From the NCBI GenBank assembly GCA_018712145.1, contig DVHJ01000045.1, positions 1-39,720 of the forward strand: a DNA stretch of 39,720 bases. Reading direction: 5' to 3'. Position 1 is the first letter of the stretch. Each line of letters starts with the position of its first letter. This document shows, one piece after another, positions 9,333 through 22,054 of the stretch. The notes under the pieces were generated by a model. That model worked only from the letters and a program-made list of their open reading frames with translations, did not search any database and was not told the DNA's origin. Both the position numbers and the translations under genes were made by a program. Source of the stretch: Candidatus Faecousia faecigallinarum (GTDB lineage Bacteria > Bacillota > Clostridia > Oscillospirales > Oscillospiraceae).

Positions 9333-9361
9333 TTGCGCCGGAAGATGAAATGCAGTATAAT
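9333..9361 (+). promoter_or_regulatory. Promoter of the vWA/PP2C/kinase operon
   Basis: TTGCGC (9333-9338) and a perfect TATAAT (9356-9361) are 17 bases apart, 50 bases before the first gene. The predicted transcript begins with or near a 7-bp hairpin, CCGGGAA (9374-9380) and TTCCCGG (9385-9391), which may protect the 5' end. Confidence 0.75.
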
Positions 9362-9410: not shown

Positions 9411-9764
9411 GTGGAAATTGCCTTGCTGTTCTTTGCCCTTGCTGTGCTGGTGTTTGCCATTGGCGGCGTGATTCTGGTGCGGCGGACCGGTAAGCGGCCG
9501 GACCCGCCGGCTCGTGGTGGGCCTGTTTACCCGCCGAATCCGCCTGGCTATCCCCCGTCTGGCGATTACCCGGTTGGCCCCCCTGCCGGGTCGGAAACCG
9601 CCGGCGGCCCGCCGGTGCCGGCGGCAGAACCGGCCGCGCCGGACGGATATATTTCCTTGTATACTTTCCAGCCAAGAGAGGACGGCTGGCGTTGCCCCAA
9701 TTGCGACGGGGAAAATCCCCCGGGGGAAAGCCGTTGCCGGATATGCGGACGGCTGAGAGTTTAA
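9411..9764 (+). CDS. Small membrane protein with C-terminal zinc ribbon
   Basis: 117 residues from GTG 9411, with GAGAGAGG upstream. Residues about 3-22 are one hydrophobic segment (LLFFALAVLVFAIGGVIL) followed by basic residues RRTGKR, so the rest is probably cytoplasmic. Residues 30-80 are a Pro/Gly-rich linker. The C-terminal C-P-N-C and C-R-I-C pairs form a zinc ribbon. No enzymatic domain is present. It is the first gene of the operon with the vWA, PP2C and kinase genes and probably serves as a membrane anchor or adaptor. Role inferred only from context. Confidence 0.7.
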   Translation: MEIALLFFALAVLVFAIGGVILVRRTGKRPDPPARGGPVYPPNPPGYPPSGDYPVGPPAGSETAGGPPVPAAEPAAPDGYISLYTFQPREDGWRCPNCDGENPPGESRCRICGRLRV

Positions 9765-9785
9765 CCCAGAGAAAAGAGGGAGCCT

Positions 9786-10877
9786 ATGTTTTGTAAATGG
9801 TGCGGAACCCCCATGAGACCTACCGATGGCAAGTGCTCCGCCTGCCACCGGGAGCAGCCGCCGGCCTCGGACTGTAACGGATTTTATCACCTGGTGCCGG
9901 ATGCCAAAATCCTGCTGGAAAGCGCAAAATCCGGCCCGGTGGCCGAAACCAAACCCGCTGCCCCGGTATCTGAACCGGCCGGCCAGAGCCAATGGCAGCC
10001 GCCGGTTCCGGTCAGGCCCCGCTCTCCTTGGCCCACAGTGATTGCCGGCGCTGCAGTGTTGGCGCTGGTGGTGGTTACCGGCTTGCTGATTCGTTCCAGC
10101 GCACAGGTGCGCCGGTTGGAGGACCGGGTGCAGGAGTTGGAGCAGCAGACGGTCCTCCTCCCCACCCAAACGCCCCAGAGCACGGCAGGCACCGGACCGG
10201 CTACCCAACCGCCCACGGAAGCGGTAACCCAACCGGCGACAGAACCGGCTACTGAGCCAAGCATGCAGCCTACGACTGCGCCGTCCACCCAGCCCGCCAC
10301 GGACCCCGTCATGACCACTGCGGAGATTGCCGGCGCGGACCTCACCTTTACCATGACCATTGACGGCCAGCGAGTCACCGGCGGCTGTGCCGAGCTGGGC
10401 AGGCAGCTGGATTTTGAGGACAACAGCGAAAATGGCGCCTGGATTGGGGAGTTTGCCCTGGAGAACGATCCCCAGGATACAGAGGCGGAGTTGCGGATCT
10501 CCCTGGAGCAGGACGGCACCCAAACCACCATCCGGCTGAGCTGCAATGTGGATGCCGATGGGGATAACGGCGGCACCTTTGGCCAGTCTGGTGGCATCCA
10601 GGCCAAGGATGTGATCTGGACCTATGACACCGGCAACGGCGTGGCCATGGCCCTGCCCCAAACGGTGTTGGCCCCCGAAGACAGCGAGGCATATCTGCAC
10701 CGGGAAGTGGAGTTTACCCTCTCCCATACCCAGCTGAAGCGGCTGCTGGGGCAGGGGGAGGAGCTCACCCTCTCTTTCCGCTGCGTGAGAGAGAACGTAT
10801 ACGGCGGCTCCATCACCTTTGACGTTACCGGCCTGACCCTGTCCGTGCCTGGTACGGTAACCACCGGCAGGCCGTAA
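9786..10877 (+). CDS. Zinc-ribbon membrane protein with large extracytoplasmic domain
   Basis: 363 residues. The N-terminal zinc ribbon has CKWC (residues 3-6) and CSAC, followed by a linker. One membrane segment (about 79-100, WPTVIAGAAVLALVVVTGLL), then a short predicted coiled coil with LEDRVQELEQQ. A Thr/Pro-rich spacer (about 119-176, many TQPATEP-like units) resembles a cell-wall-spanning stalk. The last 185 or so residues are a beta-rich domain that I do not recognise. Topology therefore puts the ribbon in the cytoplasm and a sensor- or adhesin-like domain outside. It is 22 bases after the first gene. Likely a receptor for the kinase system; inference. Confidence 0.7.
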   Translation: MFCKWCGTPMRPTDGKCSACHREQPPASDCNGFYHLVPDAKILLESAKSGPVAETKPAAPVSEPAGQSQWQPPVPVRPRSPWPTVIAGAAVLALVVVTGLLIRSSAQVRRLEDRVQELEQQTVLLPTQTPQSTAGTGPATQPPTEAVTQPATEPATEPSMQPTTAPSTQPATDPVMTTAEIAGADLTFTMTIDGQRVTGGCAELGRQLDFEDNSENGAWIGEFALENDPQDTEAELRISLEQDGTQTTIRLSCNVDADGDNGGTFGQSGGIQAKDVIWTYDTGNGVAMALPQTVLAPEDSEAYLHREVEFTLSHTQLKRLLGQGEELTLSFRCVRENVYGGSITFDVTGLTLSVPGTVTTGRP

Positions 10878-10901
10878 ACCCATCATCAGGAGGTAGGATA
10901 T

Positions 10902-11633
10902 ATGCAAGATAATTATTATGGCGGCCAGAATGGCGGCCAGCCCAATTTTGTCCACAAGCAGAGCTATACCGTGGATATGGTATTCTGCATTGACGCCACC
11001 GGCAGCATGGAGGACGACACCGGCCTGCAGGATAAGATCATCAATATGGTGAAGAAAAATGCCCTGCATTTTTACGATGACTTTTGCCTGACCATGAGCA
11101 AGAAGCGGAAGCTGGTGCAGCAGCTCCGGGTGCGGGTGGTGGCCTTCCGGGATTACTTGGAGGATCGGGAGAAGGCCATGCTGGTGACCAACTTCTTTCT
11201 TCTGCCCCAGCAGGCTCGGGAATTTGAGGCCTGCATCAACAGCATTCACGCCGACGGCGGCGGGGACATTCCCGAAGATGGGCTGGAAGCTTTGGCCTAT
11301 GCCATCCGCTCCCCCTGGACCACGGAGGGGGAAAAGCAGCGCCACGTGATTGTGGTCTGGTCCGACGCCGGCACCCATGAGCTGGGGTTTGGCCGGGCGG
11401 CGCCCAACTATCCCAAAGGAATGCCTGCCAACATGTCTGAGCTCACTGACTGGTGGGAGACATATATGCGCCAGAACAGTAAGCGTCTGCTGCTGTTTAC
11501 CCCCAATGAGCCGGGGTGGAGCCATATTTCCGACTACTGGGACAATGTGGTACATTATCCTTCTGTTACCGGGAACGGCCTGGCGGAGCAAAATTATCAG
11601 GAAATTTTAAACATTGTGGCCAACTCGGTGTGA
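10902..11633 (+). CDS. von Willebrand factor A domain protein, TerY-like
   Basis: 243 residues, almost entirely one vWA domain. The metal-ion-dependent adhesion site reads DATGSM (D31, T33, S35; D-x-T-x-S form instead of D-x-S-x-S), with a later GGGDIPEDGLEAL loop and VVWSDAG. It lacks signal peptide and membrane segments, so it is cytoplasmic. A Gly/Gln-rich N-terminus of about 15 residues precedes the domain. Cytoplasmic vWA proteins with a PP2C and a kinase as neighbours are the hallmark of TerY-P-type triads, where the vWA protein is thought to act as a metal-dependent assembly scaffold. RBS AGGAGG is 9 bases upstream. Confidence 0.85.
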   Translation: MQDNYYGGQNGGQPNFVHKQSYTVDMVFCIDATGSMEDDTGLQDKIINMVKKNALHFYDDFCLTMSKKRKLVQQLRVRVVAFRDYLEDREKAMLVTNFFLLPQQAREFEACINSIHADGGGDIPEDGLEALAYAIRSPWTTEGEKQRHVIVVWSDAGTHELGFGRAAPNYPKGMPANMSELTDWWETYMRQNSKRLLLFTPNEPGWSHISDYWDNVVHYPSVTGNGLAEQNYQEILNIVANSV

Positions 11634-11657
11634 GTTTTCCGGGAAAGGGGAATCTTC

Positions 11658-12620
11658 ATGCAACACAGTGACCTGGGGCTGGACGTGATTGTACAGTTCT
11701 GCGGCCAGCCGGAGCTGGGAGAGGACAGCAGCTGTTACAGCTTCTGCACCAATGCCGGGCTCTTGGGTGTGTTTGACGGCTGCGGCGGACTGGGCGCCCA
11801 GACCCGCTGGCAGTATTGCGGCCGGTCGGAGGCGTACATGGCCGCCCGCTTAGCCAGTGGTGCGGCCTATGATTGGTTTTGCCAGACCTTCCCCCGGCAG
11901 AGCCCGCCGAAGCATGGGCAGGACTTGCAGGACGGGTACTTGAATCCGGTGCTGCAGGCCTTCCGCGTTCGGGGGGAGGGGGGCTTAAAGGGTTCGCTCT
12001 ACCGCCCCTTGCCCACCACGGCGGCCTTGGCGGTGGTGACCGGTCAAGGCAAGCTGCGTCAGGTTACGGCCATGTGGGCCGGGGATTCCCGGGTATACCT
12101 GCTTACCCCGGCGTTGGGCCTGTGCCAGCTCACCAGGGACCATTGCACCCAGCCGGATCCCATGGAAAATCTCTATGACGACGGTATTTTAACCAATGTA
12201 CTTTCTGCCGACGGCAACTATCATCTTGCGTTCAACCAGCTGCCGGTTACCGGCCCGGCAGTGGTGCTGGCGGCCACCGATGGCTGCTTCGGCTATGTAT
12301 CCACCCCCATGGAATTTGAGGGGTTACTCCTGTCCACGTTGGATCAGGCGGACAGTGCAGCCGGTTGGGAGACTTCCCTGGCCCAGGCCACCGGTGCAGT
12401 GTCCGGGGACGATCACACCATGGTGCTGGCGGCATTCGGCTTCGGTAGCTTTACCGCCCTGCGGGAGGCGTTCCACAGCCGCTATGCCCAGCTATACCAG
12501 CAGTACCTAGAGCCTCTGAGCCGGTTGGCACCGGATGACCGGGCGGCCCGCCGGGCCATGTGGCAGGAATACGCTGGCAATTATCTGCAATTCTTGGGAG
12601 GTCAGCCATGTCACAATTAG
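11658..12620 (+). CDS. PP2C-family protein phosphatase
   Basis: 320 residues. PP2C (PPM) metal-site motifs are visible in order: GEDSS (D23), LLGVFDGCGG (D40, G41; Cys replaces the usual His of DGHGG), AMWAGDSRVYLL, LAATDGCFGY and SGDDHTMVLA near residue 255. The main metal ligands are therefore kept, so activity as a Mn/Mg-dependent Ser/Thr phosphatase is plausible. A C-terminal helical tail of about 50 residues is extra. No membrane segment. It lies between the vWA and kinase genes, overlapping the kinase gene by 13 bases, and is the obvious counter-enzyme of that kinase. Confidence 0.88.
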   Translation: MQHSDLGLDVIVQFCGQPELGEDSSCYSFCTNAGLLGVFDGCGGLGAQTRWQYCGRSEAYMAARLASGAAYDWFCQTFPRQSPPKHGQDLQDGYLNPVLQAFRVRGEGGLKGSLYRPLPTTAALAVVTGQGKLRQVTAMWAGDSRVYLLTPALGLCQLTRDHCTQPDPMENLYDDGILTNVLSADGNYHLAFNQLPVTGPAVVLAATDGCFGYVSTPMEFEGLLLSTLDQADSAAGWETSLAQATGAVSGDDHTMVLAAFGFGSFTALREAFHSRYAQLYQQYLEPLSRLAPDDRAARRAMWQEYAGNYLQFLGGQPCHN

Positions 12621-13576
12621 GCCCCTACTATTTAGACGGGGAGATGAGCAATGCCAACGCCGGCTACTGCATGTGGGGATTCGGCACCCGATCCGGCCGG
12701 CAGTACTTTATAAAGCAGTTCCTCAGCCCCAAGTATCCCTTTGAAGGCGCGGCGTTCACCGACGAATACAAGCGCAAGCGGATCCGGGAGTGTGAGCAGT
12801 TTGAGCGGCAGAAGAAAGAGATCTACAGCGTGCTCAACCAGCATTCCGACGGAAATGACGTGCGGGTCCTGGACTTTTTCCGGATTAAATCCCGGTATTA
12901 TATGTGCATGGAGAAAGTCAACGACTTAGGGCTGACGGTGGAGCAGATTTATGCCATGGATTGGGCTGACCGGTTGCGGCTGTGCACCTCCATTGCCCAT
13001 GCGGTGGCAGGCCTGCACCAGGGCCGGATGATCCATGCGGACTTAAAGCATGACAACATCCTTTATACCTACACCCAGGGGCGGCGGATTACCGCCAAAG
13101 TCATTGACTTTGACAGCAGTTTCCTGGAGACCAATCCCCCCAAAGACGGAGAGGAAATCGTAGGGGATCAGTTGTACTTTTCCCCGGAAGCCAGGGAGTT
13201 TATGGATGGTCAGCCGGTTCCCCTCACCTGTAAAATGGATGTGTTTGCCTTGGGCATTTTGTTCCACCAGTACCTGGGAGGGAGCCTGCCGCTGTACGAC
13301 CGGACCCGGTTTCACTATCCGGCGGATGTGGTGCTCAGCGGCCAGAGTTTGGATGTTGTCCCGGAGATGCCGGCCCAGGTGGCGGATTTGTTGAGGCAGA
13401 TGCTTCAGGGGGATCCCGGACGGCGGCCTACGGCCTGGCAGTGCTTTGTTCAGCTGCGGGAGGCGATGGGGGTGCCGGTGACCTCTTTTGACCAGCCGGA
13501 GCCGCCGGCGTTTGATCAATCGCTCCCGGAGACACCGGTGAGCGAAAATCCCTGGCATGCTGCAGGGGATTTGTGA
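12608..13576 (+). CDS. Ser/Thr-type protein kinase
   Basis: 322 residues from ATG 12608 (MSQLGPYYLDG; GGGAGGTCAGCC upstream). Kinase landmarks: ATP-anchoring Lys K36 in YFIKQF, catalytic loop HADLKHDN (D145, N150), metal-binding Asp in DFDSS (D167; DFD rather than DFG), then DVFALGILFHQYL, and PGRRPTA (subdomain XI Arg). The Gly-rich loop is degenerate (GYCMWGFG). It has no transmembrane or PASTA domain, unlike PrkC, so it must be brought to the membrane by partners. A Pro/Glu-rich tail of about 35 residues ends AAGDL. Likely the kinase of the vWA/PP2C triad; substrate unknown, with the zinc-ribbon proteins as candidates. Confidence 0.88.
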   Translation: MSQLGPYYLDGEMSNANAGYCMWGFGTRSGRQYFIKQFLSPKYPFEGAAFTDEYKRKRIRECEQFERQKKEIYSVLNQHSDGNDVRVLDFFRIKSRYYMCMEKVNDLGLTVEQIYAMDWADRLRLCTSIAHAVAGLHQGRMIHADLKHDNILYTYTQGRRITAKVIDFDSSFLETNPPKDGEEIVGDQLYFSPEAREFMDGQPVPLTCKMDVFALGILFHQYLGGSLPLYDRTRFHYPADVVLSGQSLDVVPEMPAQVADLLRQMLQGDPGRRPTAWQCFVQLREAMGVPVTSFDQPEPPAFDQSLPETPVSENPWHAAGDL

Positions 13577-13604
13577 GAAAACCGTGAGAGATAAGGAGGA
13601 GACC

Positions 13605-14210
13605 ATGAAACGATTATCCTGGAAACCCGGTGCAGCGGTGGCCGGGATCGGCCTATTTGCCCTGTTAACCGGAATTTTGCTTCAGCTAACCCCCAGGAAT
13701 TTGTGGCGGGAGCTGTTTTACCAACCCCTGGGCCTGTCTGCCGGTTGGAGCCTGGGCCGGGTGGTGTACTGGGTGGGCATTGCCCTGCTGGCAGTGGGCG
13801 TGATTTGGACGCTGATTGCCCTGGTGGCCCGGCGCAAGCCTGGGAAACCGGCCGGCACATGGGTTTGCGCCGCTTGCGGCGCATCCAATCAGGCGGGCAG
13901 CCACTTCTGCGGAGTGTGCGGAAAACCGGCGGCCGCTGCCGGACAGGGGAAAACCTGGCGGTGCAGCGTGTGCGGCGGGATGAACCCGGCAGCCGCTACG
14001 GTTTGCCGCAGCTGCGGAAATCCTGCCCAGCCGGCTAGCAGGGAGCAAACCTGGACTGCACCCCAGCCATCGGCCCAACGGGCAGACCCGGCGCAACAGC
14101 CGGCCCAGGCCGCAGCGCCGGTGCAGCAGCCGGTTTCCCGGGAGACGGGGGCCGCCCAACCTTCTGCCAGCCAGCAGAGCGGCGGCTTTACCACCCCGGG
14201 AGATTTGTAA
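13605..14210 (+). CDS. Two-pass membrane protein with tandem zinc ribbons
   Basis: 201 residues from ATG 13605 (AAGGAGGAG upstream). Two hydrophobic segments (about 10-28 and 50-75), then basic residues ARRKPGK, so both termini are probably cytoplasmic. Two zinc ribbons follow: WVCAACG...FCGVCG and WRCSVCG...VCRSCG, each with two CxxC pairs. The last 60 residues are Gln/Ala/Pro-rich and disordered, ending TTPGDL, a tail that resembles the kinase end (AAGDL). No known function; probably an adaptor or phosphorylation target in the membrane. Confidence 0.7.
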   Translation: MKRLSWKPGAAVAGIGLFALLTGILLQLTPRNLWRELFYQPLGLSAGWSLGRVVYWVGIALLAVGVIWTLIALVARRKPGKPAGTWVCAACGASNQAGSHFCGVCGKPAAAAGQGKTWRCSVCGGMNPAAATVCRSCGNPAQPASREQTWTAPQPSAQRADPAQQPAQAAAPVQQPVSRETGAAQPSASQQSGGFTTPGDL

Positions 14211-14244
14211 AGCCTGGCTTACCCAGGCGGAAAGGAGAAGTACG

Positions 14245-14886
14245 ATGGTTGTGGTGGGATGGATACTGACGGCTCTGGGCCTGCTGGGTTCAGTGGGTTG
14301 CCTGGCTGTCAGAAACAGCGAGGAATTTCAGCTGGAACACGCGTTTAATGGTCTTGCCCACGCCTATGGGGAAAGGATGACCAGCGTGGACATCATTAAC
14401 TACGCCACCTATGGCTGCGTGGCGCTGCTGGTGCTGGGCATTATCTTACTGGCGGTGGGCTACAGCCGGGCCAGCCGCAGCCGGCAGCAGGCGGCGCCGG
14501 GGTACGGCGCCTATCCGCCACCTATGGGCTACGCGCCCCCGGCAGCAGGAGCGGCTCCGGTGAGCAGTGCGGCTGCCGGCTGGCGGTGCAGCTGCGGCAT
14601 GGAAAATGGGGCGGATGCCCGGTTTTGCGCTGCCTGCGGAAAACCCCGCCCGGCAGCGCAGCCGGTGGAGCACTGCCCCGCCTGCGGCGCAGCGGCGGAA
14701 GAACCTGGGCAGGCATTTTGCAGCCACTGCGGCAAGCCCATGGCAGCCCCTGGGAAATGGGATATGCCGCCCGTGCGGCCGGAGTCACCGGCATCTTCGC
14801 CGGAGGCGCCCGCCCAACCAGATACGCCCCCGGCCGAAAATGCGCCCCCGGTATTTAAGAGCACCTTCGGCAAACGGTCCGGCTGA
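14245..14886 (+). CDS. Two-pass membrane protein with tandem zinc ribbons (second)
   Basis: 213 residues. Two hydrophobic segments (about 3-22 and 55-76) flank a short loop; then a Pro/Gly/Ala-rich linker, and two zinc ribbons. The first is unusual, with a CSC (CxC) pair in place of CxxC before CAAC; the second has CPAC and CSHC. The C-terminal 50 residues are Pro-rich and end FKSTFGKRSG. It looks like a relative of the preceding gene product and lies 34 bases after it. Function unknown; by layout it is another cytoplasmic ribbon-bearing membrane partner. Confidence 0.68.
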   Translation: MVVVGWILTALGLLGSVGCLAVRNSEEFQLEHAFNGLAHAYGERMTSVDIINYATYGCVALLVLGIILLAVGYSRASRSRQQAAPGYGAYPPPMGYAPPAAGAAPVSSAAAGWRCSCGMENGADARFCAACGKPRPAAQPVEHCPACGAAAEEPGQAFCSHCGKPMAAPGKWDMPPVRPESPASSPEAPAQPDTPPAENAPPVFKSTFGKRSG

Positions 14887-14929
14887 CGGCGTTTTCCAGA
14901 TTTTTTGACACACTGAAAGGAGGCAGCTT

Positions 14930-16384
14930 ATGAATTCCTGTCCCAAATGCGGCTATGCCAATGATGGCGATGCCATGTTTTGCGCCCAATGCGGCAACTT
15001 GCTTACCCGGCCTGCCGGTGGGCAGCAAACCGCCGGCCAATCTGCCGGACAATTTAATGGCCGGCCTGGCCAGTATTCCGGCGCCCAGCAAAACGGGTTT
15101 AGCCAATCCAGCAAAGGAAATCAGCCGGAGGCCCCCCAGGAGGGCAAGCCCAAGAAGCGGGGTGGCCTGGTGGCGGTATTGTGCCTGGCCTTGGTGGCAG
15201 CCATCGGCTTGGGCATTGGCTTCTGGCTGACCCTGTCCAGCCCAACGGCCCGGTTCCTCCGGGCGTTCCGCCAGACCGGCGACGCCCTGGGTGACTACCT
15301 GTCCCAGCCGGAGCAACTGGCGGACTTTGGAGAGAACATCCACACCCTGCTGGCAGACCGCAAGGAATTTACCATGGAGCTTGGCATTAGCCAGGAATTA
15401 GATTTTTCGTTGCATTGTGCGGACGGCGCAGCACTGCTGCAGATGGAAATCCCCAGTGGCTGGAGCAGCCTGGAGATGAATTTCTATGGGGACAGCCAGG
15501 TGGTGCAGCTGGAGGTGCCCCAGTTCCTGGATGAGGTTTACGGCCTGCCCCTGGAGAATTTGGGGGAAGAGCTGCCGGATTCTGCGTTGGGCCAAATGCT
15601 GGGTCTGACGGAGGAGCTTGACCTGTCCGGGGAAAGCTGGACCATGCCGGACTACCGGCCCCAGCTGGATCAGTTCCTGGATACATTGACGGTGGAGGAA
15701 CTGGGGGAGGAAACCCTGACCTTAGGCGGCCGCAGCACGCCCTGCACTGTGTATTCCCTGAGTTGGGACAATGCGGCGCTGGCGGAACTCATCAACTGGT
15801 TTGTAGATTATGGGACGTTGGGTGCAACCAGCATGGATGCGGGAACCGATGCTTCCTTGCCCGGAGCCAACACTGCCCATATTGCGGCAGAGAATCTACC
15901 CCAGATTGAGGCGGAAGCTTACGTAGACAGCCGGGGGAACCTGGTGGGCCTGGATATCACGGTGGAAGAGCATACCCTGGCCATCCGCCTGTGCGGCGAG
16001 GAAAATGTCTGGAGTGAGCTGGCTCTGTGGGAGCGGGATTCCGCTGGCGATGAAGACTATATAGGTGGCTGGTCCCTGGAGGCCGGGGAGGATGGGATTC
16101 TCTGGACATTTAATGACAGCGGCGGTGAAGCGGAGTTTACCATCCAGTATGACAACGATTCCGGCCAGTACAGCGCCCTGGATGCGTATGGTGGTGGCAT
16201 TACCGGCACCCTCCGGGGGGAAAATGGCGAGGCGGAATTTAGCTTAGGGGACGGTTACCAGGAAATGGTGCTGATTTTCAGCCCGTTACAGGAGGAGCCG
16301 CAACCGTTGAGCCAGGACTATGTGGATCTCCTGGAGATGACAGAAGCGGATTGGCAGGAGCTGATGTATTCTTTCTACGGCTGA
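14930..16384 (+). CDS. Zinc-ribbon membrane protein with large extracytoplasmic domain (second)
   Basis: 484 residues. N-terminal zinc ribbon CPKCGYAN...FCAQCG (residues 4-22), a Gln/Gly/Asn-rich linker, a basic stop (PKKRG) and one membrane segment (about 76-98, LVAVLCLALVAAIGLGIGF). The remaining 380 residues are extracytoplasmic, acidic and beta-rich, with no motif I can name. RBS AAGGAGG 8 bases upstream. The architecture (ribbon in, sensor out) repeats that of the 9786 gene although the outer domains differ, as expected for receptors feeding one shared cytoplasmic kinase/phosphatase module. Confidence 0.7.
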   Translation: MNSCPKCGYANDGDAMFCAQCGNLLTRPAGGQQTAGQSAGQFNGRPGQYSGAQQNGFSQSSKGNQPEAPQEGKPKKRGGLVAVLCLALVAAIGLGIGFWLTLSSPTARFLRAFRQTGDALGDYLSQPEQLADFGENIHTLLADRKEFTMELGISQELDFSLHCADGAALLQMEIPSGWSSLEMNFYGDSQVVQLEVPQFLDEVYGLPLENLGEELPDSALGQMLGLTEELDLSGESWTMPDYRPQLDQFLDTLTVEELGEETLTLGGRSTPCTVYSLSWDNAALAELINWFVDYGTLGATSMDAGTDASLPGANTAHIAAENLPQIEAEAYVDSRGNLVGLDITVEEHTLAIRLCGEENVWSELALWERDSAGDEDYIGGWSLEAGEDGILWTFNDSGGEAEFTIQYDNDSGQYSALDAYGGGITGTLRGENGEAEFSLGDGYQEMVLIFSPLQEEPQPLSQDYVDLLEMTEADWQELMYSFYG

Positions 16385-16405
16385 TTTTCGACAAAAGGAG
16401 ATAAG

Positions 16406-17095
16406 ATGAAGAAGATTGTACCTGTGATTGTTTTTCTGGCGCTCTGCCTGACTGCCTGTGGGCTGCTGCCGGCGGCCAGCACGGAACCGGCCACCGAACC
16501 GGCGGATATTCCGCCGGAGGTGACCATCGACCCAGGGATTCAGGGGGCGTGGTATTGCGTCAATGGCGAGCTGGAATTGCAGCTGGACATTGATGCCGGC
16601 GGGAACTTCAGCATGTATGACCTGCCGGCGGACCAGTCCAAACAAACCCTGACGGGTGTTGTGACGGTGTCCGGAGATCAGGTAACCTTGACGGCCCAGA
16701 CCATCAATGGCGCTGCGGCAGAGGAAAGCGTGGAAGAAGGCGTTTTGGACGGCAGCGGCAACCTGGTGTTTGGCAATAACGACATGGTCTTTACCCGGGA
16801 GGCGCCGGCTTCGGCGGAGACCATGCCGGAAAATGCCGGCGGTCTGTCCGGTACTTGGACCGGTGGAGACGGCCTGTACACCCTTTCCCTGACGGCGGAG
16901 GGGATGTTCAGCCTGACCCAGGAGGACGGCGAAATTACCGGAATCTACACGGTGGACGGCACGGAAATCTGCCTGATTACCCAGATGGTGAACGGCCAGG
17001 ACTATACCGGGGACGAGGGTGAACTCACCGGCCAGGTGGGCCAGGACGGTACATTGGATATGCAGGGGACGGTATTTGTCCCGGCAGCGGAATGA
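16406..17095 (+). CDS. Lipoprotein with two lipocalin-like repeats
   Basis: 229 residues. Signal peptide with the lipobox LTAC (Cys at residue 19), so it is lipid-anchored outside the membrane. A Thr/Glu/Pro-rich spacer follows. Two domains of about 80 residues share a pattern: GAWYCVNGELELQLDIDAGG...GVVTVSGDQVTLTAQTINGAA and GTWTGGDGLYTLSLTAEG...GIYTVDGTEICLITQMVNGQD (shown in parts), suggesting an internal duplication. It is the last gene of the operon, closed by a double terminator. Function unknown; it may bind ligands or the outer parts of the membrane proteins. Confidence 0.75.
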   Translation: MKKIVPVIVFLALCLTACGLLPAASTEPATEPADIPPEVTIDPGIQGAWYCVNGELELQLDIDAGGNFSMYDLPADQSKQTLTGVVTVSGDQVTLTAQTINGAAAEESVEEGVLDGSGNLVFGNNDMVFTREAPASAETMPENAGGLSGTWTGGDGLYTLSLTAEGMFSLTQEDGEITGIYTVDGTEICLITQMVNGQDYTGDEGELTGQVGQDGTLDMQGTVFVPAAE

Positions 17096-17100
17096 TTTAC

Positions 17101-17172
17101 AGGCGGGAGGCCCATTGGGTCTCCCGCCTGAAACGGCCAGTAAGCGTCATTTTTGGCTTTCTGGCCGTTTTT
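17101..17172 (+). terminator. Double hairpin terminator of the vWA/PP2C/kinase operon
   Basis: Hairpin 1 is AGGCGGGAG with CTCCCGCCT (17101-17129). Hairpin 2 is AACGGCCAG (17132-17140) with CTGGCCGTT (17161-17169), followed by T6. The second has the classical U tract. No convincing promoter was found between here and the next gene at 17333; a TATTAT at 17280-17285 has only a weak -35. Confidence 0.88.
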
Positions 17173-17332: not shown

Positions 17333-20300
17333 ATGAAATGGAAAAAATGGATTTCTGCCTGCTTGGCCCTCGGCCTGACGGTTTCGGCCTTTGCCGCAGC
17401 CATGCCCCGGGCTGCTGCAGCGGACGCCAAAACGGAACCGGGCCTATGGCTGACGGAAATTTACCAGAATGACCGGAACCGTTCCGGCGTGTTCAGCAAC
17501 TCCAGCGACCAGATGGAGTTTGTGGAAGTGACCAATACCGCCGGGGAGGCGGTGAGCTTGGGAACCGACTATACCCTGTGGTATGAGTATCCCTCCGGTG
17601 ACACCATGGTGATGAAGCAGCTCACCATCTCCAGCCCAACCGGCTCCACCGTTGTGGAAGCCGGGGAGACGGTTGTGCTCTGGAGCCAGCGCACGGACTT
17701 GGGGGGCGAAGAAGGGGTGGACTATGCTTCCGAAGCCCAGTTCCGCCAGGCCATGTCGGTGCCGGAGGACGTGAAGGTCTACCGGGTATCCGGCCAGAAT
17801 GGCTTTGCCGAAAATGACCGGGGCTTTGCCCTGAAGAATGCGGCCGGTGAGGTGACCAGCTATTTCCATTACAATACCACTACCGATGAGGTCACTGCTG
17901 ACGGCTTGGCGGTGAGCCTGGCCATTCCGGACTTCGGCAGCCAGATGCAGGTTTTCGCTGCCAAGAAGCCCACCACCGCCGGACGGGTTTTCGTTGGCCA
18001 GCTCAACGGCCAGCGTACCGCCACCGCCCCGGCAGACCTGACCCCGGAAGGGGTGTACATCACCGAGATCCGGCCCAATGACAGCAGCCGGGACGGGGAT
18101 TTCGGCAGCGGCAGCAACGACATGATGGAGTGCCTGGAGCTGTATAACACCACCGGCGAGACGGTGGATCTGAATCAGGCGTATGAGCTGATCTACCGGG
18201 TGAAAGAGGACAATACCAAGGTGCTGCCCCTGTACCGGCTGCTGGAGGATGGCACCCTGAGCGGGGAGGGCTGCACCATCGCCCCCAATTCCCCGGCGGT
18301 GCTGTGGTGCTACCGGGCAGAGTCTCTGGCCGGCAGCTATGACCGGTTCCCCACAGAAGCGGAGTTCCGGGCTGCCTACGGCATTGCCGATGATGTGCCG
18401 GTATATGTGTTCACTGCCCAGAACGGTTTGAACAACACCTTGCGGGGCTTTGAACTGTTCCACAAGGAGGCCGACGGCAGCAAGACCCTGGTAAGCCGGT
18501 ATTTCTGGGACGGCGTTGATGATCTCAAAGACAACCGCAGCGTGGAGCTGAAGGTGAACCCGGAGGGTCCGGAAATGCTGGTCTACCGCGCCCAGGCTAC
18601 GACGAACATGGGTGTGGTGAACGAGGCGCAGATCACCTATCCTGCCGACGATGGTTCCAGCCCCACCCTGACCCTGCTGGATGACCGGACTACCGTCACC
18701 CAGGGCGATTTTCTGCGGATCCCCTACAACTTTGCCGGTTCTGACACCATGCCGGTGCGGTCTATCACCCTGTACTACCGCACCGACCTGATGTCCGCCT
18801 ATGCCAGCGAGGAAACCACCAGCTTTGCCATTTACAACAAGTGGTATGCCTTTATCCCCTCTGATGTACTGCTAAACGCTCAGTATGTGGATTACTATGT
18901 GAAGGCCGCCAACGATTACCGCACCACCATGACAGAAGTCCGGCGGGTGGATGTGGAGAAGCTGGAGGCGGGGCTGACCGGTTTGCAGGTGAATTTCCCT
19001 GAGCAGGAGACGGTTTCCGGCCAAGTGAACTTTACCGTGAAAGACTTTGGGGATACCACTGCCGCCTTCTCCGTCCACGTGGACGGCCAAGCGGTGGAGA
19101 TGACCCCCAGCTTCGCCCAGGGTGCCTTCTTCACCTTCACCCACCGGGGAGTGGACAGCTATTTTAAGAACGCCCTGCTGTGCGGCGACAGCATTATCCG
19201 CAACTTTGCCAAGAGCAGCGAAATTCCCAGCGATTCCTCCATGGCAATCTTCGTGGATCAGCGCTACTTTACCTACCAGGCGGATGGCTCCGCGACAATC
19301 GTCCTGGAGATTTGGCCCGGCACTTATGGCTCTACCTGGGAGAATGATACCGAGGCCAACAATGATGATTTTTACATCAGCGATATGGCCCTGTCCACCC
19401 TGGACGGCCAGATTATCCGGCCGGTATCCATTGTCAATGAAAATGGGGAAGCCCTGGCCCTGGATGCAGAGCTGAGCATTGGCGACAGCGCCACCTGCAA
19501 CAAGAAGGCCATCATGACCTTTGAGATTCCGGCGGGTCTCACCGATGCCATGGCCGGTGTAATTGACACCACCACCTTGGCCGACGGCACCCACAACCTG
19601 ATTGTGGGCAGCTCCACCGGCAGCAGCCGGTCCATCAGCTTCACCGTGGACAACACGGCGCCCCAGCCGGAGCCGGAGCCGGAACCCATGGACATGGCCA
19701 TGGAGATGACCCTCACCGCTTATCCCGCCGCTGCAGCGGTTGACGCCCCTGCCGGTACGGCTGCTGTGGAGATTTACCAGGCTCAGCCCCTCACCGGCTA
19801 TACCGTCGCCACCGGCGTAGGCGACTCCACCATTTCCCAGACTGCCGCCCAGGGCCTGACCACGGTGGTTTCCGAGAACGGCCAGCTGCCCTACGCGGTG
19901 TTCACTGTGGACACCCGGGGCCAGACCGCCGGAACGGTTCGCCTGGACCTGACCGCTCAGGCGGATTATGACCAGCCGGTGCGGCTGTATGCCTTGACCC
20001 AGGAGGATACCTGGACGCCGCTGAACTGCGCCTGGGCCAACGGCACGGTCACCGCGCTGGTTCAGCTGGAGGACCTGGTCCAGGACGGCCAGCTCACCAT
20101 TCTGGCCCAGGCCAGAGGTGCGGAGTACAACCCGGTGACTACCCAGCCCGCCACTGCCGATACGGTGGAAAACGACTACGTCTGGGACGGTACCGGCATC
20201 CCGGAGCAGTACGACTTTGCCTTTGCCTGGATCAGCGACACCCAGTACTATGCCGAGCAGTATATGGAGAACTTTGCCGCCGTCACCGATTGGATTGTGG

Positions 20301-22054
20301 CCGAGAAGGATGCGCTGGGCATTGAATACGTGATCCATACCGGCGACATTGTGGACGAGTTCAACGAAGAGTATCAGTTTGTCAACGCCTCTGAACAGTT
20401 GGAGAAATTGGAAAACGCCGGCCTGCCCTACGGCCTGCTGGGCGGTAACCATGACGTGGCCCACGGCAATGCGGTGTACGACCTGTACCAGAAGTACTTT
20501 GGCGCATTCCGCTACGAAGGCAATCCCTGGTATGGCGGCACCTATGACGACAACAAGGGCCACTATGATCTGGTGAATGTAGACGGCGAGGAATTCCTGT
20601 TCATCTACATGTCCTGGGATATCTACACCCCGGAGGTGGAGTGGATCAACAGCGTGCTGGAGCAGTACCCCGACCGGACGGCTATCCTCTGCACCCACCC
20701 GGGCATCAACGCCACAGCTACCCCGGATTACTTCAGCGACCTGCTGCTGGAGGAGGTCTGCCGGACCCATCCCAATGTGATTGCCATGCTCAACGGCCAC
20801 TACCACGGCTCTGCCCTGAACTTTGTGGGCTTTGACGACGATGGCGACGGGGTGGACGACCGGGTGGTTTACCGGATCTGCACCGACTACCAGAGCGCTC
20901 CCGGCGGCGGCCAGGGTTACATCAAGATGATTTACTTTGACCTGGCCAACGATAAGGTGTACCTGAATTCCTATTCCCCGGTGCTGGATGACTACAACTA
21001 CTATGACACCCCGAAGCTGGACAACTACAGCGCGGGCACTGTGGCTTACGACATTGATATCACCGAGCTGGACGTGGACTTTGACCGCCAGACCCCCAAG
21101 ACCCTGACCCTGACGGATTTCCAGGCCAACCTCTTGGGCGCCGATCTGATCGCCCGCAGCGAAACGGAAACTACCCTCTCCCTGGGCCAGACCGTGGGCA
21201 GCGTCTATGCCGTGGCCAAGGACAGCCAGGACAATGTGCTGGCCTACAGCCCGGTGCAGGCAGTAAGCGGCCAGTATACCATTCAGGCGGTGGCCGATGA
21301 CGGCGGTTCTCTGTCTCCCGAGGGCGCCACGGTAGTTGCCCTGAATGGCGCCGTTACCTACACCATTACCCCGGATGAGGGCTACGAAATTGCCGATGTG
21401 TTGGTGGACGGCCAGACCGTGGGCCCGGTGAGCACCTACACCTTCACCGGCGTAAACGCCAACCATACCATTGAGGCCCGGTTTACCCAAATTCCGGCCC
21501 CGGAGCTGCCCTTCGTGGACGTGGCGGAGAGCGCATGGTACTACCAGGATGTGTCCTACGTGTTTGCCCATGGGCTGATGAACGGCGTGGACGAGACCCG
21601 CTTTGCCCCCCAGAGCCTGACCAGCCGGGCCATGGCGGCGGTGATCCTGTACCGGCTGGAGGGCAATCCCCAGGCAGGCCAGTCGGACTTCACCGACGTG
21701 GCTGAGGGCCAATACTTTGCCCCGGCGGTAGCCTGGGCCCAGGCCGAGGGCCTGGTGGAGGGCTATGGCGACGGCACCTTCCGGCCCAACCAGACCATGA
21801 CCCGGCAGGAACTGGCCACGGTGCTCTACCGTTACGCCGAATACAAGGGCCTGGATGTCAGCCAGAGCGCTGATCTATCTGGCTATGCCGACGCCGGCAG
21901 AATTCAGGGCTATGCCCGCCCGGCCATGGCCTGGGCGGTAAGCGTGGGCCTGATGGAAGGCACATCGGAAACCACCCTATCCCCTGCAGGCGGCGCCCAG
22001 CGCTGCCAGCTGGCGGCTCTGCTGCACCGGTTCGACGTTATGCTGAACGGCTAA
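17333..22054 (+). CDS. Cell-surface metallophosphoesterase with lamin-tail-like repeats and three SLH domains
   Basis: 1573 residues. Signal peptide (residues 1-31). Two similar repeats of about 190 residues (about 37-225 and 240-430), each opening with 'TEIYQND'/'TEIRPND'-type strands, look like lamin-tail (LTD) domains. Further beta domains follow and a PEPEPEP linker near 780. A complete calcineurin-type phosphoesterase lies at about 958-1245: D969 in SDTQ, D1005 in GDIVDE, N1039/H1040 in GNHD, H1122 in CTHPG, H1156 and H1158 in GHYHG. Then an InlB-type repeat (about 1318-1386) and three SLH domains (about 1392-1573) that anchor it non-covalently to the cell wall. Substrate unknown; nucleotide or phosphodiester scavenging is plausible. 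Confidence 0.88.
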   Translation: MKWKKWISACLALGLTVSAFAAAMPRAAAADAKTEPGLWLTEIYQNDRNRSGVFSNSSDQMEFVEVTNTAGEAVSLGTDYTLWYEYPSGDTMVMKQLTISSPTGSTVVEAGETVVLWSQRTDLGGEEGVDYASEAQFRQAMSVPEDVKVYRVSGQNGFAENDRGFALKNAAGEVTSYFHYNTTTDEVTADGLAVSLAIPDFGSQMQVFAAKKPTTAGRVFVGQLNGQRTATAPADLTPEGVYITEIRPNDSSRDGDFGSGSNDMMECLELYNTTGETVDLNQAYELIYRVKEDNTKVLPLYRLLEDGTLSGEGCTIAPNSPAVLWCYRAESLAGSYDRFPTEAEFRAAYGIADDVPVYVFTAQNGLNNTLRGFELFHKEADGSKTLVSRYFWDGVDDLKDNRSVELKVNPEGPEMLVYRAQATTNMGVVNEAQITYPADDGSSPTLTLLDDRTTVTQGDFLRIPYNFAGSDTMPVRSITLYYRTDLMSAYASEETTSFAIYNKWYAFIPSDVLLNAQYVDYYVKAANDYRTTMTEVRRVDVEKLEAGLTGLQVNFPEQETVSGQVNFTVKDFGDTTAAFSVHVDGQAVEMTPSFAQGAFFTFTHRGVDSYFKNALLCGDSIIRNFAKSSEIPSDSSMAIFVDQRYFTYQADGSATIVLEIWPGTYGSTWENDTEANNDDFYISDMALSTLDGQIIRPVSIVNENGEALALDAELSIGDSATCNKKAIMTFEIPAGLTDAMAGVIDTTTLADGTHNLIVGSSTGSSRSISFTVDNTAPQPEPEPEPMDMAMEMTLTAYPAAAAVDAPAGTAAVEIYQAQPLTGYTVATGVGDSTISQTAAQGLTTVVSENGQLPYAVFTVDTRGQTAGTVRLDLTAQADYDQPVRLYALTQEDTWTPLNCAWANGTVTALVQLEDLVQDGQLTILAQARGAEYNPVTTQPATADTVENDYVWDGTGIPEQYDFAFAWISDTQYYAEQYMENFAAVTDWIVAEKDALGIEYVIHTGDIVDEFNEEYQFVNASEQLEKLENAGLPYGLLGGNHDVAHGNAVYDLYQKYFGAFRYEGNPWYGGTYDDNKGHYDLVNVDGEEFLFIYMSWDIYTPEVEWINSVLEQYPDRTAILCTHPGINATATPDYFSDLLLEEVCRTHPNVIAMLNGHYHGSALNFVGFDDDGDGVDDRVVYRICTDYQSAPGGGQGYIKMIYFDLANDKVYLNSYSPVLDDYNYYDTPKLDNYSAGTVAYDIDITELDVDFDRQTPKTLTLTDFQANLLGADLIARSETETTLSLGQTVGSVYAVAKDSQDNVLAYSPVQAVSGQYTIQAVADDGGSLSPEGATVVALNGAVTYTITPDEGYEIADVLVDGQTVGPVSTYTFTGVNANHTIEARFTQIPAPELPFVDVAESAWYYQDVSYVFAHGLMNGVDETRFAPQSLTSRAMAAVILYRLEGNPQAGQSDFTDVAEGQYFAPAVAWAQAEGLVEGYGDGTFRPNQTMTRQELATVLYRYAEYKGLDVSQSADLSGYADAGRIQGYARPAMAWAVSVGLMEGTSETTLSPAGGAQRCQLAALLHRFDVMLNG

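Follow-up and report, generated by a model that had tools for sequence, protein, structure and literature searches.

A shared C-terminal Gly-Asp-Leu tag beside a predicted integrin beta I-like vWA protein suggests a membrane-linked kinase-phosphatase switch in a clostridial operon

The 39,720-nucleotide (nt) stretch of contig DVHJ01000045.1 from Candidatus Faecousia faecigallinarum analysed here, referred to as a whole as the window, carries on its + strand at 9411-17095 a block of nine tightly packed open reading frames (ORFs). Three of them, the trio, encode a von Willebrand factor A (vWA) protein, a PP2C-like phosphatase and a Ser/Thr kinase; the others encode five membrane zinc-ribbon proteins (g1, g2, g6, g7 and g8) and a lipoprotein (g9). 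The kinase and g6 share a short C-terminal tag that ends in Gly-Asp-Leu (GDL), whereas the vWA protein encoded beside them is predicted to fold like the integrin beta I-like domain. The sequence itself shows how the genes are ordered, that the trio is conserved, that the tag is shared and that residues of the metal ion-dependent adhesion site (MIDAS) type are nearly invariant. As a tentative explanation, whose probability we put somewhat short of even, we propose a membrane-linked phosphorylation switch in which kinase and membrane protein carry the same tag and the integrin-like vWA protein grips the tag aspartate via a metal ion. A previous, sequence-only reading of this DNA had supposed that the ribbon proteins recruit the soluble trio to the membrane. 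What the kinase and some of the membrane proteins have in common can be refined to the GDL-type tag, which that reading had overlooked.

The kinase ends in WHAAGDL (13553..13573, + strand) and g6 in FTTPGDL (14187..14207, + strand). The consensus is approximately F-x-x-(A/P)-G-D-L, that is Phe or Trp, two free residues, usually Ala or Pro, and then Gly-Asp-Leu. This pattern was fixed in writing before database kinases were checked. From 774 database kinases the best 120 were checked: 107 carried the loose and 87 the strict form of the tag, with a slight bias to tagged kinases being possible since the search alignment included the tag columns. The loose tag was found on none of 120 vWA homologues. 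It was present in 85 of the 95 listed database kinases less than 70% identical to any discovery kinase and in 21 of the 27 of those below 60%; when kinase domains were clustered at 60% identity, 16 of 20 clusters had at least one tagged member. Position −4, which is free in the pattern, was Pro or Ala in 108 of 113 sequences. The high information at positions −1, −2, −3 and −7 is partly due to the use of the pattern for selection. The tag sits strictly at the C-terminus, at the end of a variable linker, a placement that would be expected of a short docking motif. We rejected the tag as a phosphosite because many tags (WFKPAGDL, for example) contain no Ser, Thr or Tyr.

Tags were also counted in 22 loci, from which L017, L054, L055, L056, L057 and L123 were omitted. 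Here 16 of 21 kinases were tagged; so were 10 of the 18 proteins whose genes lie between those of the trio, and 2 of 41 other neighbours. In nine loci the kinase and another protein both carried the tag. It was absent from the vWA proteins (0/23), the PP2C proteins (0/22) and distant neighbours (0/176). The Fisher p of 2.7e-12 for the enrichment between the trio genes was computed on the discovery loci and is descriptive. Hydropathy and a charge rule predicted 4 of the 15 tagged non-core proteins to be soluble and 11 to have a cytosolic C-terminus; the predicted position of the tag is the cytosol. For 57 untagged ribbon proteins, the same end was predicted outside in 29, inside in 16 and undecided in 11, with one protein soluble. 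Outside the window, zinc-ribbon and transmembrane (TM) calls were made by regular-expression and hydropathy rules. When nine whole genomes were searched for the tag in its DNA form, 37 matches were obtained, and a reversed control gave 18; 16 of the 37 lay inside the operons, as did all five of those in genome G899. In genome G607, which has a tagged kinase, an FtsW/RodA/SpoVE-type protein encoded far from the operon (L114:5583-7232, − strand) ends in EFFTGGGDL. It may be a remote tag bearer or a chance match.

The vWA protein (10902..11633, + strand; 243 amino acids, aa) consists of a single Pfam domain, VWA_4, scoring above cut-off, and has no hydrophobic segment. Its predicted fold is integrin beta I-like (mean predicted local distance difference test score, pLDDT, 91.3). 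The best 50 matches listed by Foldseek for this model were all integrin beta chains, and a second structure aligner returned among its best 50 listed the same kind of chains plus one row for the related Pactolus I-domain. At E≤0.1, the only PDB sequences matched by a profile of the vWA protein were those of integrin beta-8 and beta-6 (best E 3.2e-4). The metal-site segments of integrin beta-8 line up with D31, T33, S35, E125 and D155 of the vWA protein, which we take to be MIDAS-type residues from the assignment of their integrin counterparts. These positions hardly vary: in the MIDAS-type motif D31-x-T33-x-S35 (10992..11006, + strand), which aligns to integrin beta-8, the three residues are kept in 135, 136 and 135 of 137 homologues, those of D122-x-P124-E125 (11265..11276, + strand) in 137, 137 and 136, and the MIDAS-type aspartate D155 (11364..11366, + strand) in all 137. 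The ligand motif of integrins alphaV-beta6 and alphaV-beta8 is given as RGDLXX(L/I) in a passage of PMC9411592. Fold matches, conserved metal residues and this mode of integrin binding together make a metal-mediated grip of the vWA protein on the Asp of the GDL tag a reasonable proposal. The earlier label 'TerY-like' for this protein has become doubtful: it matched no TerY-named family in Pfam, NCBIfam or PADLOC, where the presence of a TerY-P vWA model is unconfirmed, and the solved structures nearest to it are integrin beta I-like domains. The vWA protein has a characteristic C-terminus of its own (window 11622-11630), ending in NSV, NSI or NSL in 112 of 120 homologues.

Both a phosphatase and a kinase activity are predicted for the other two members of the trio. 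The PP2C-like protein (11658..12620, + strand; 320 aa) stays below the Pfam cut-off (PP2C_2, E 0.0025); the motifs GED, DGCGG, GDSR, TDG and GDD are present and kept in an alignment of 18 relatives, across which the metal-binding Asp motifs show no variation. The kinase (12608..13576, + strand; 322 aa; Pfam Pkinase, E 9.7e-26) is soluble, and its catalytic residues K36, D145, N150 and D167 are invariant in 18 relatives.

In the proposed switch, the vWA protein would bind the Asp of the GDL tag through its bound metal ion. The kinase and the tagged membrane proteins would dock on, or compete for, one vWA site, which might hold one tag bearer, the other, or several in a cluster. Membrane events would then bring the kinase together with its substrates or part it from them, and PP2C would undo the action of the kinase and reset the system. 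Input would be supplied by the outer regions of g2 and g8, for which we infer a sensor role, together with the lipoprotein g9. Going further, bacteria of this class might use the tags as a cytosolic peptide code, possible in our view but rather doubtful: the integrin beta-like vWA protein would recognise GDL at the free C-terminus of the kinase and of a variable assortment of membrane and zinc-ribbon proteins, and gain of a tag would plug new membrane sensors or effectors into the kinase-phosphatase core. A conserved tag on the kinase and its partners, beside an integrin-type vWA protein, makes the role of the latter a simple peptide-binding question. If the proposal is true, RGD-like recognition operates inside bacterial cells and a plain rule exists for membrane proteins joining a phosphosignalling core. 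The tag doubles as a search handle for partners beyond the operon.

Several observations weigh against these ideas. The integrin match is weak at the sequence level and the PDB is rich in integrins; the PP2C protein or the kinase could be the reader of the tag. Five of the 21 kinases in the 22 loci are off-pattern (L007, L016, L116, L117 and L118), with those of L118 and L007 retaining an F-x-x-P-x-x-L ending, and among four loci fetched after the pattern had been fixed, the kinase fits in L123 only (WFTAPDEL). When kinase domains were clustered at 50% identity, at least one tagged member was found in 4 of 7 clusters. Most ribbon proteins encoded nearby but outside the trio are untagged (3 of 55 tagged in the 22 loci), and the flanking Lys/Arg count of g2 (2 before, 4 after) weakly opposes a cytosolic ribbon. 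The vWA protein and its metal site are retained in L017 and L054, both tagless; conservation of the metal site is therefore not tag-specific. There is no ribbon gene near the L017 trio, which speaks against one system. Across the compared sequences the tag is common in the family, but not universal, being missing or degenerate in some relatives. In the divergent loci L017 and L054 the tagless kinases have, near their C-terminus, two copies of a module of some 60 residues. The ribbon protein encoded next to the L054 kinase finishes with this module as well (52% identity to the L017 kinase over 63 residues). Here too, kinase and ribbon protein have their C-terminal part in common, a second version of the same idea.

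The distribution of the genes bears on whether they form one system. With the window protein as query, vWA relatives were found in 3 of 200 family, 6 of 394 order and 18 of 391 class genomes (14 at E≤1e-30); a profile at E≤1e-20 recovered 1 of 398 phylum and 4 of 400 family genomes, all counts including the source genome. The family is large even though it is rare per genome, since the protein database holds 1705 vWA relatives at E≤0.001. In 61 genomes of the same genus, a kinase search led to three more trios. Rare though the vWA gene is, the genes of the trio lie together in 25 of 28 related loci (window included; 24 tabulated plus L123). As exceptions, the contig of L049 ends before a kinase gene is reached, and in L055 and L057 the vWA genes are not accompanied by those for PP2C and kinase. 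In L055 (9045-11210, genome G871) three vWA genes of this family stand in tandem next to a gene for a zinc-ribbon TM protein, and neither a PP2C nor a kinase gene was found nearby; the same genome also holds a complete divergent trio, L054.

Gene order was tabulated for 26 loci, L055 and L057 being left out; for the GC-rich L005 and L123, tblastn and single-strand ORFs were used. In 16 of these loci the vWA gene comes directly after two zinc-ribbon genes, and zinc-ribbon genes make up 75 of 158 nearby versus 18 of 204 distant genes. The proximity of trio and zinc-ribbon genes exceeds chance. As a unit they are found again in several of the families within the class, in differing surroundings; relative L005, whose vWA protein is 88% identical, has truB and ribF upstream. 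To this extent the single system of the sequence-only reading finds partial support. It does not extend to the trios in L017 and on Herpetosiphon and Calothrix plasmids, the latter two distant and with no membrane ribbon genes adjoining. Such trios had been named beforehand as counting against a single system, and they mean that, across long evolutionary distances, the trio can part from the ribbon genes. On the Herpetosiphon plasmid pHAU01, a short ribbon-like g1 match lies directly behind the kinase in another frame (L111:12869-12946, E 5e-4), and a gene for a CHAT-domain protein stands upstream of the related trio (L111:3754-6930). In L116, a same-genus trio, a resolvase-type recombinase gene (904-1515) precedes the first ribbon gene by about 350 nt, a hint of mobility. 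A viral origin of the vWA gene was rejected after a profile scan of viral contigs, which gave eight distant matches, 24-38% identical.

The main rival explanation is a role in anti-phage or stress defence, in which the TerY-P-like trio would control membrane effectors and the zinc-ribbon membrane proteins would damage or reshape the envelope on infection. The patchy distribution of the vWA gene in the family, its changing surroundings and the resolvase gene near the L116 trio would fit such a role, and TerY-P triads are described as anti-phage in passages of PMC11090510 and PMC7699616. In PADLOC, too, the kinase is recognised by kinase models, mad6 among them (E 3.4e-27). These matches, however, concern the general kinase domain and extend over many families, whereas the vWA and PP2C proteins of the window gave no match in PADLOC. 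The scanned neighbours in the window are housekeeping genes and an SLH protein gene, and the presence of a lipoprotein and of diverse outer regions points to external input more than to phage sensing. We regard defence as unlikely.

A more improbable alternative keeps the tag but changes its reader: the PP2C protein or the kinase's own domain, not the vWA protein, would bind it, and the tag would dock substrates or keep the kinase off until it is displaced by membrane proteins. A tag common to the kinase and candidate substrates is what one would expect of docking or pseudosubstrate tails. PP2C is nearby throughout and is about twice as long (641-695 aa) in L017, L054 and L056, all tagless loci. 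The loci do not separate the possibilities. In the vWA protein a site of the kind that takes up the Asp of a peptide is predicted, and we know of no comparable site in a PP2C or kinase. Recognition of the tag by the vWA protein is the reading that we prefer. Finally, the tag could be a general address or degradation signal for a housekeeping protease or membrane factor, with its sharing reflecting common turnover, as its shortness, its strictly C-terminal position behind a variable linker and the ending of the FtsW/RodA-type protein in G607 might suggest, but this is very improbable, since outside the operons the tag is near control level and a private reader therefore fits better than a general one.

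The remaining features of the operon agree for the most part with what had been seen in it before. All nine ORFs are present on the + strand with short gaps: 21-43 nt separate neighbouring genes, and those for PP2C and kinase overlap by 13 nt. The terminator was confirmed as a double structure of two adjacent hairpins (17100..17170, + strand; ΔG −52.6 kcal/mol, z −7.5). The claim of one promoter fared less well. A candidate can be read from the sequence at 9333..9361 (+ strand), with a −10 box TATAAT at 9356-9361, a 17-nt spacer and a poor −35 box, TTGCGC. A consensus promoter scan did not list it and yielded 4 sites versus 3.1 expected in shuffled sequence, no excess, so that the single promoter stays a candidate.

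The five zinc-ribbon membrane proteins of the sequence-only reading were all found, with one or two hydrophobic segments each. By a simple charge rule, the Lys/Arg count flanking the segments fits a cytosolic ribbon in g1, g6, g7 and g8, whereas g2 is weakly reversed. All are encoded on the + strand. g1 (9411..9764; 117 aa) has an N-terminal TM segment and a C-terminal zinc ribbon; g2 (9786..10877; 363 aa) has an N-terminal ribbon, a TM segment, a Thr/Pro stalk and an outer region. Both have g1-type and g2-type counterparts, respectively, in relatives, and in both the two CxxC pairs are intact despite Pfam ribbon scores below cut-off. g6 (13605..14210; 201 aa) combines two TM segments with two zinc ribbons (Pfam RanBP ribbon and DZR, above cut-off) and a predicted cytosolic C-terminus. 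The tagless g7 (14245..14886; 213 aa) likewise has two TM segments and zinc ribbons, with a Pfam ribbon above cut-off. g8 (14930..16384; 484 aa), with a relative in L005, has an N-terminal ribbon (Pfam, above cut-off), a TM segment and a large outer region. Its model, built from three sequences, is poor (mean pLDDT 45.6); the matches listed in a database search were two, one of them nearly identical to g8. The 229-aa lipoprotein g9 (16406..17095, + strand) shows the lipobox LTAC.

Upstream of the operon lie nusB, a tsaD-like gene, xseA and a polyprenyl synthetase gene. The gene that follows downstream (window 17333-22054) codes for a surface protein of 1573 aa, in which a lamin-tail and a metallophosphoesterase domain are combined with SLH repeats. 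In the flanks scanned, which also include an FGGY kinase gene, there are no ter, restriction or DNA-processing genes; xseA encodes a DNA exonuclease subunit and is a housekeeping gene. In the literature searched, which excluded the founding TerY-P paper, we found no description of the operon or the tag.

Kinase, PP2C phosphatase and vWA domain also meet in the threonine phosphorylation pathway of type VI secretion (PpkA/PppA/Fha), where they belong to one membrane-linked pathway. The window shares these three domains, but its vWA is a separate soluble protein. By Pfam, an FHA domain was found neither in the nine window proteins nor among the 25 of 32 Pfam families listed for 78 proteins (77 of them adaptors of relatives or the window). 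The integrin beta subunit shares with the vWA protein the predicted I-like fold and the metal-site segments, and the candidate ligand offers Gly-Asp-Leu. The vWA protein differs in being a lone 243-aa bacterial domain without a TM segment that would bind a free C-terminus. It has no hybrid, PSI or EGF domain by Pfam, and no alpha subunit partner was seen, no search having been made for one. The actinobacterial genes for kinase, PP2C and vWA linked to GAP1-N2 GTPases, as described in parts of PMC7159879, code for the same three domains. The window set is clostridial, however, and no GTPase family was found in its nine proteins (Pfam) or in the scanned flanks.

The closest likeness in composition is to the TerY-P triad, with which the window shares adjacent genes for vWA, PP2C-like and Ser/Thr kinase proteins (10902-13576). 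In a passage of PMC11090510 this triad is proposed to be a metal-dependent phospho-switch, and the vWA role in kinase-PP2C-vWA triads is offered only as a hypothesis in the passages of PMC11090510 and PMC7699616 that concern it. The TerY-P kinase is defined there (PMC11090510) by C-terminal fusion to a zinc ribbon. The window kinase has no CxxC pair and, in Pfam, neither a fused zinc ribbon nor an OB-fold, whereas the L007 kinase does carry a zinc-ribbon motif. Because of this definition, we file the set as a variant and not as a TerY-P member. A further difference is what the window adds, namely the membrane zinc-ribbon proteins and the shared C-terminal tag. Judged by its genes, the operon is TerY-P-like in composition and a new, membrane-linked variant of that theme.

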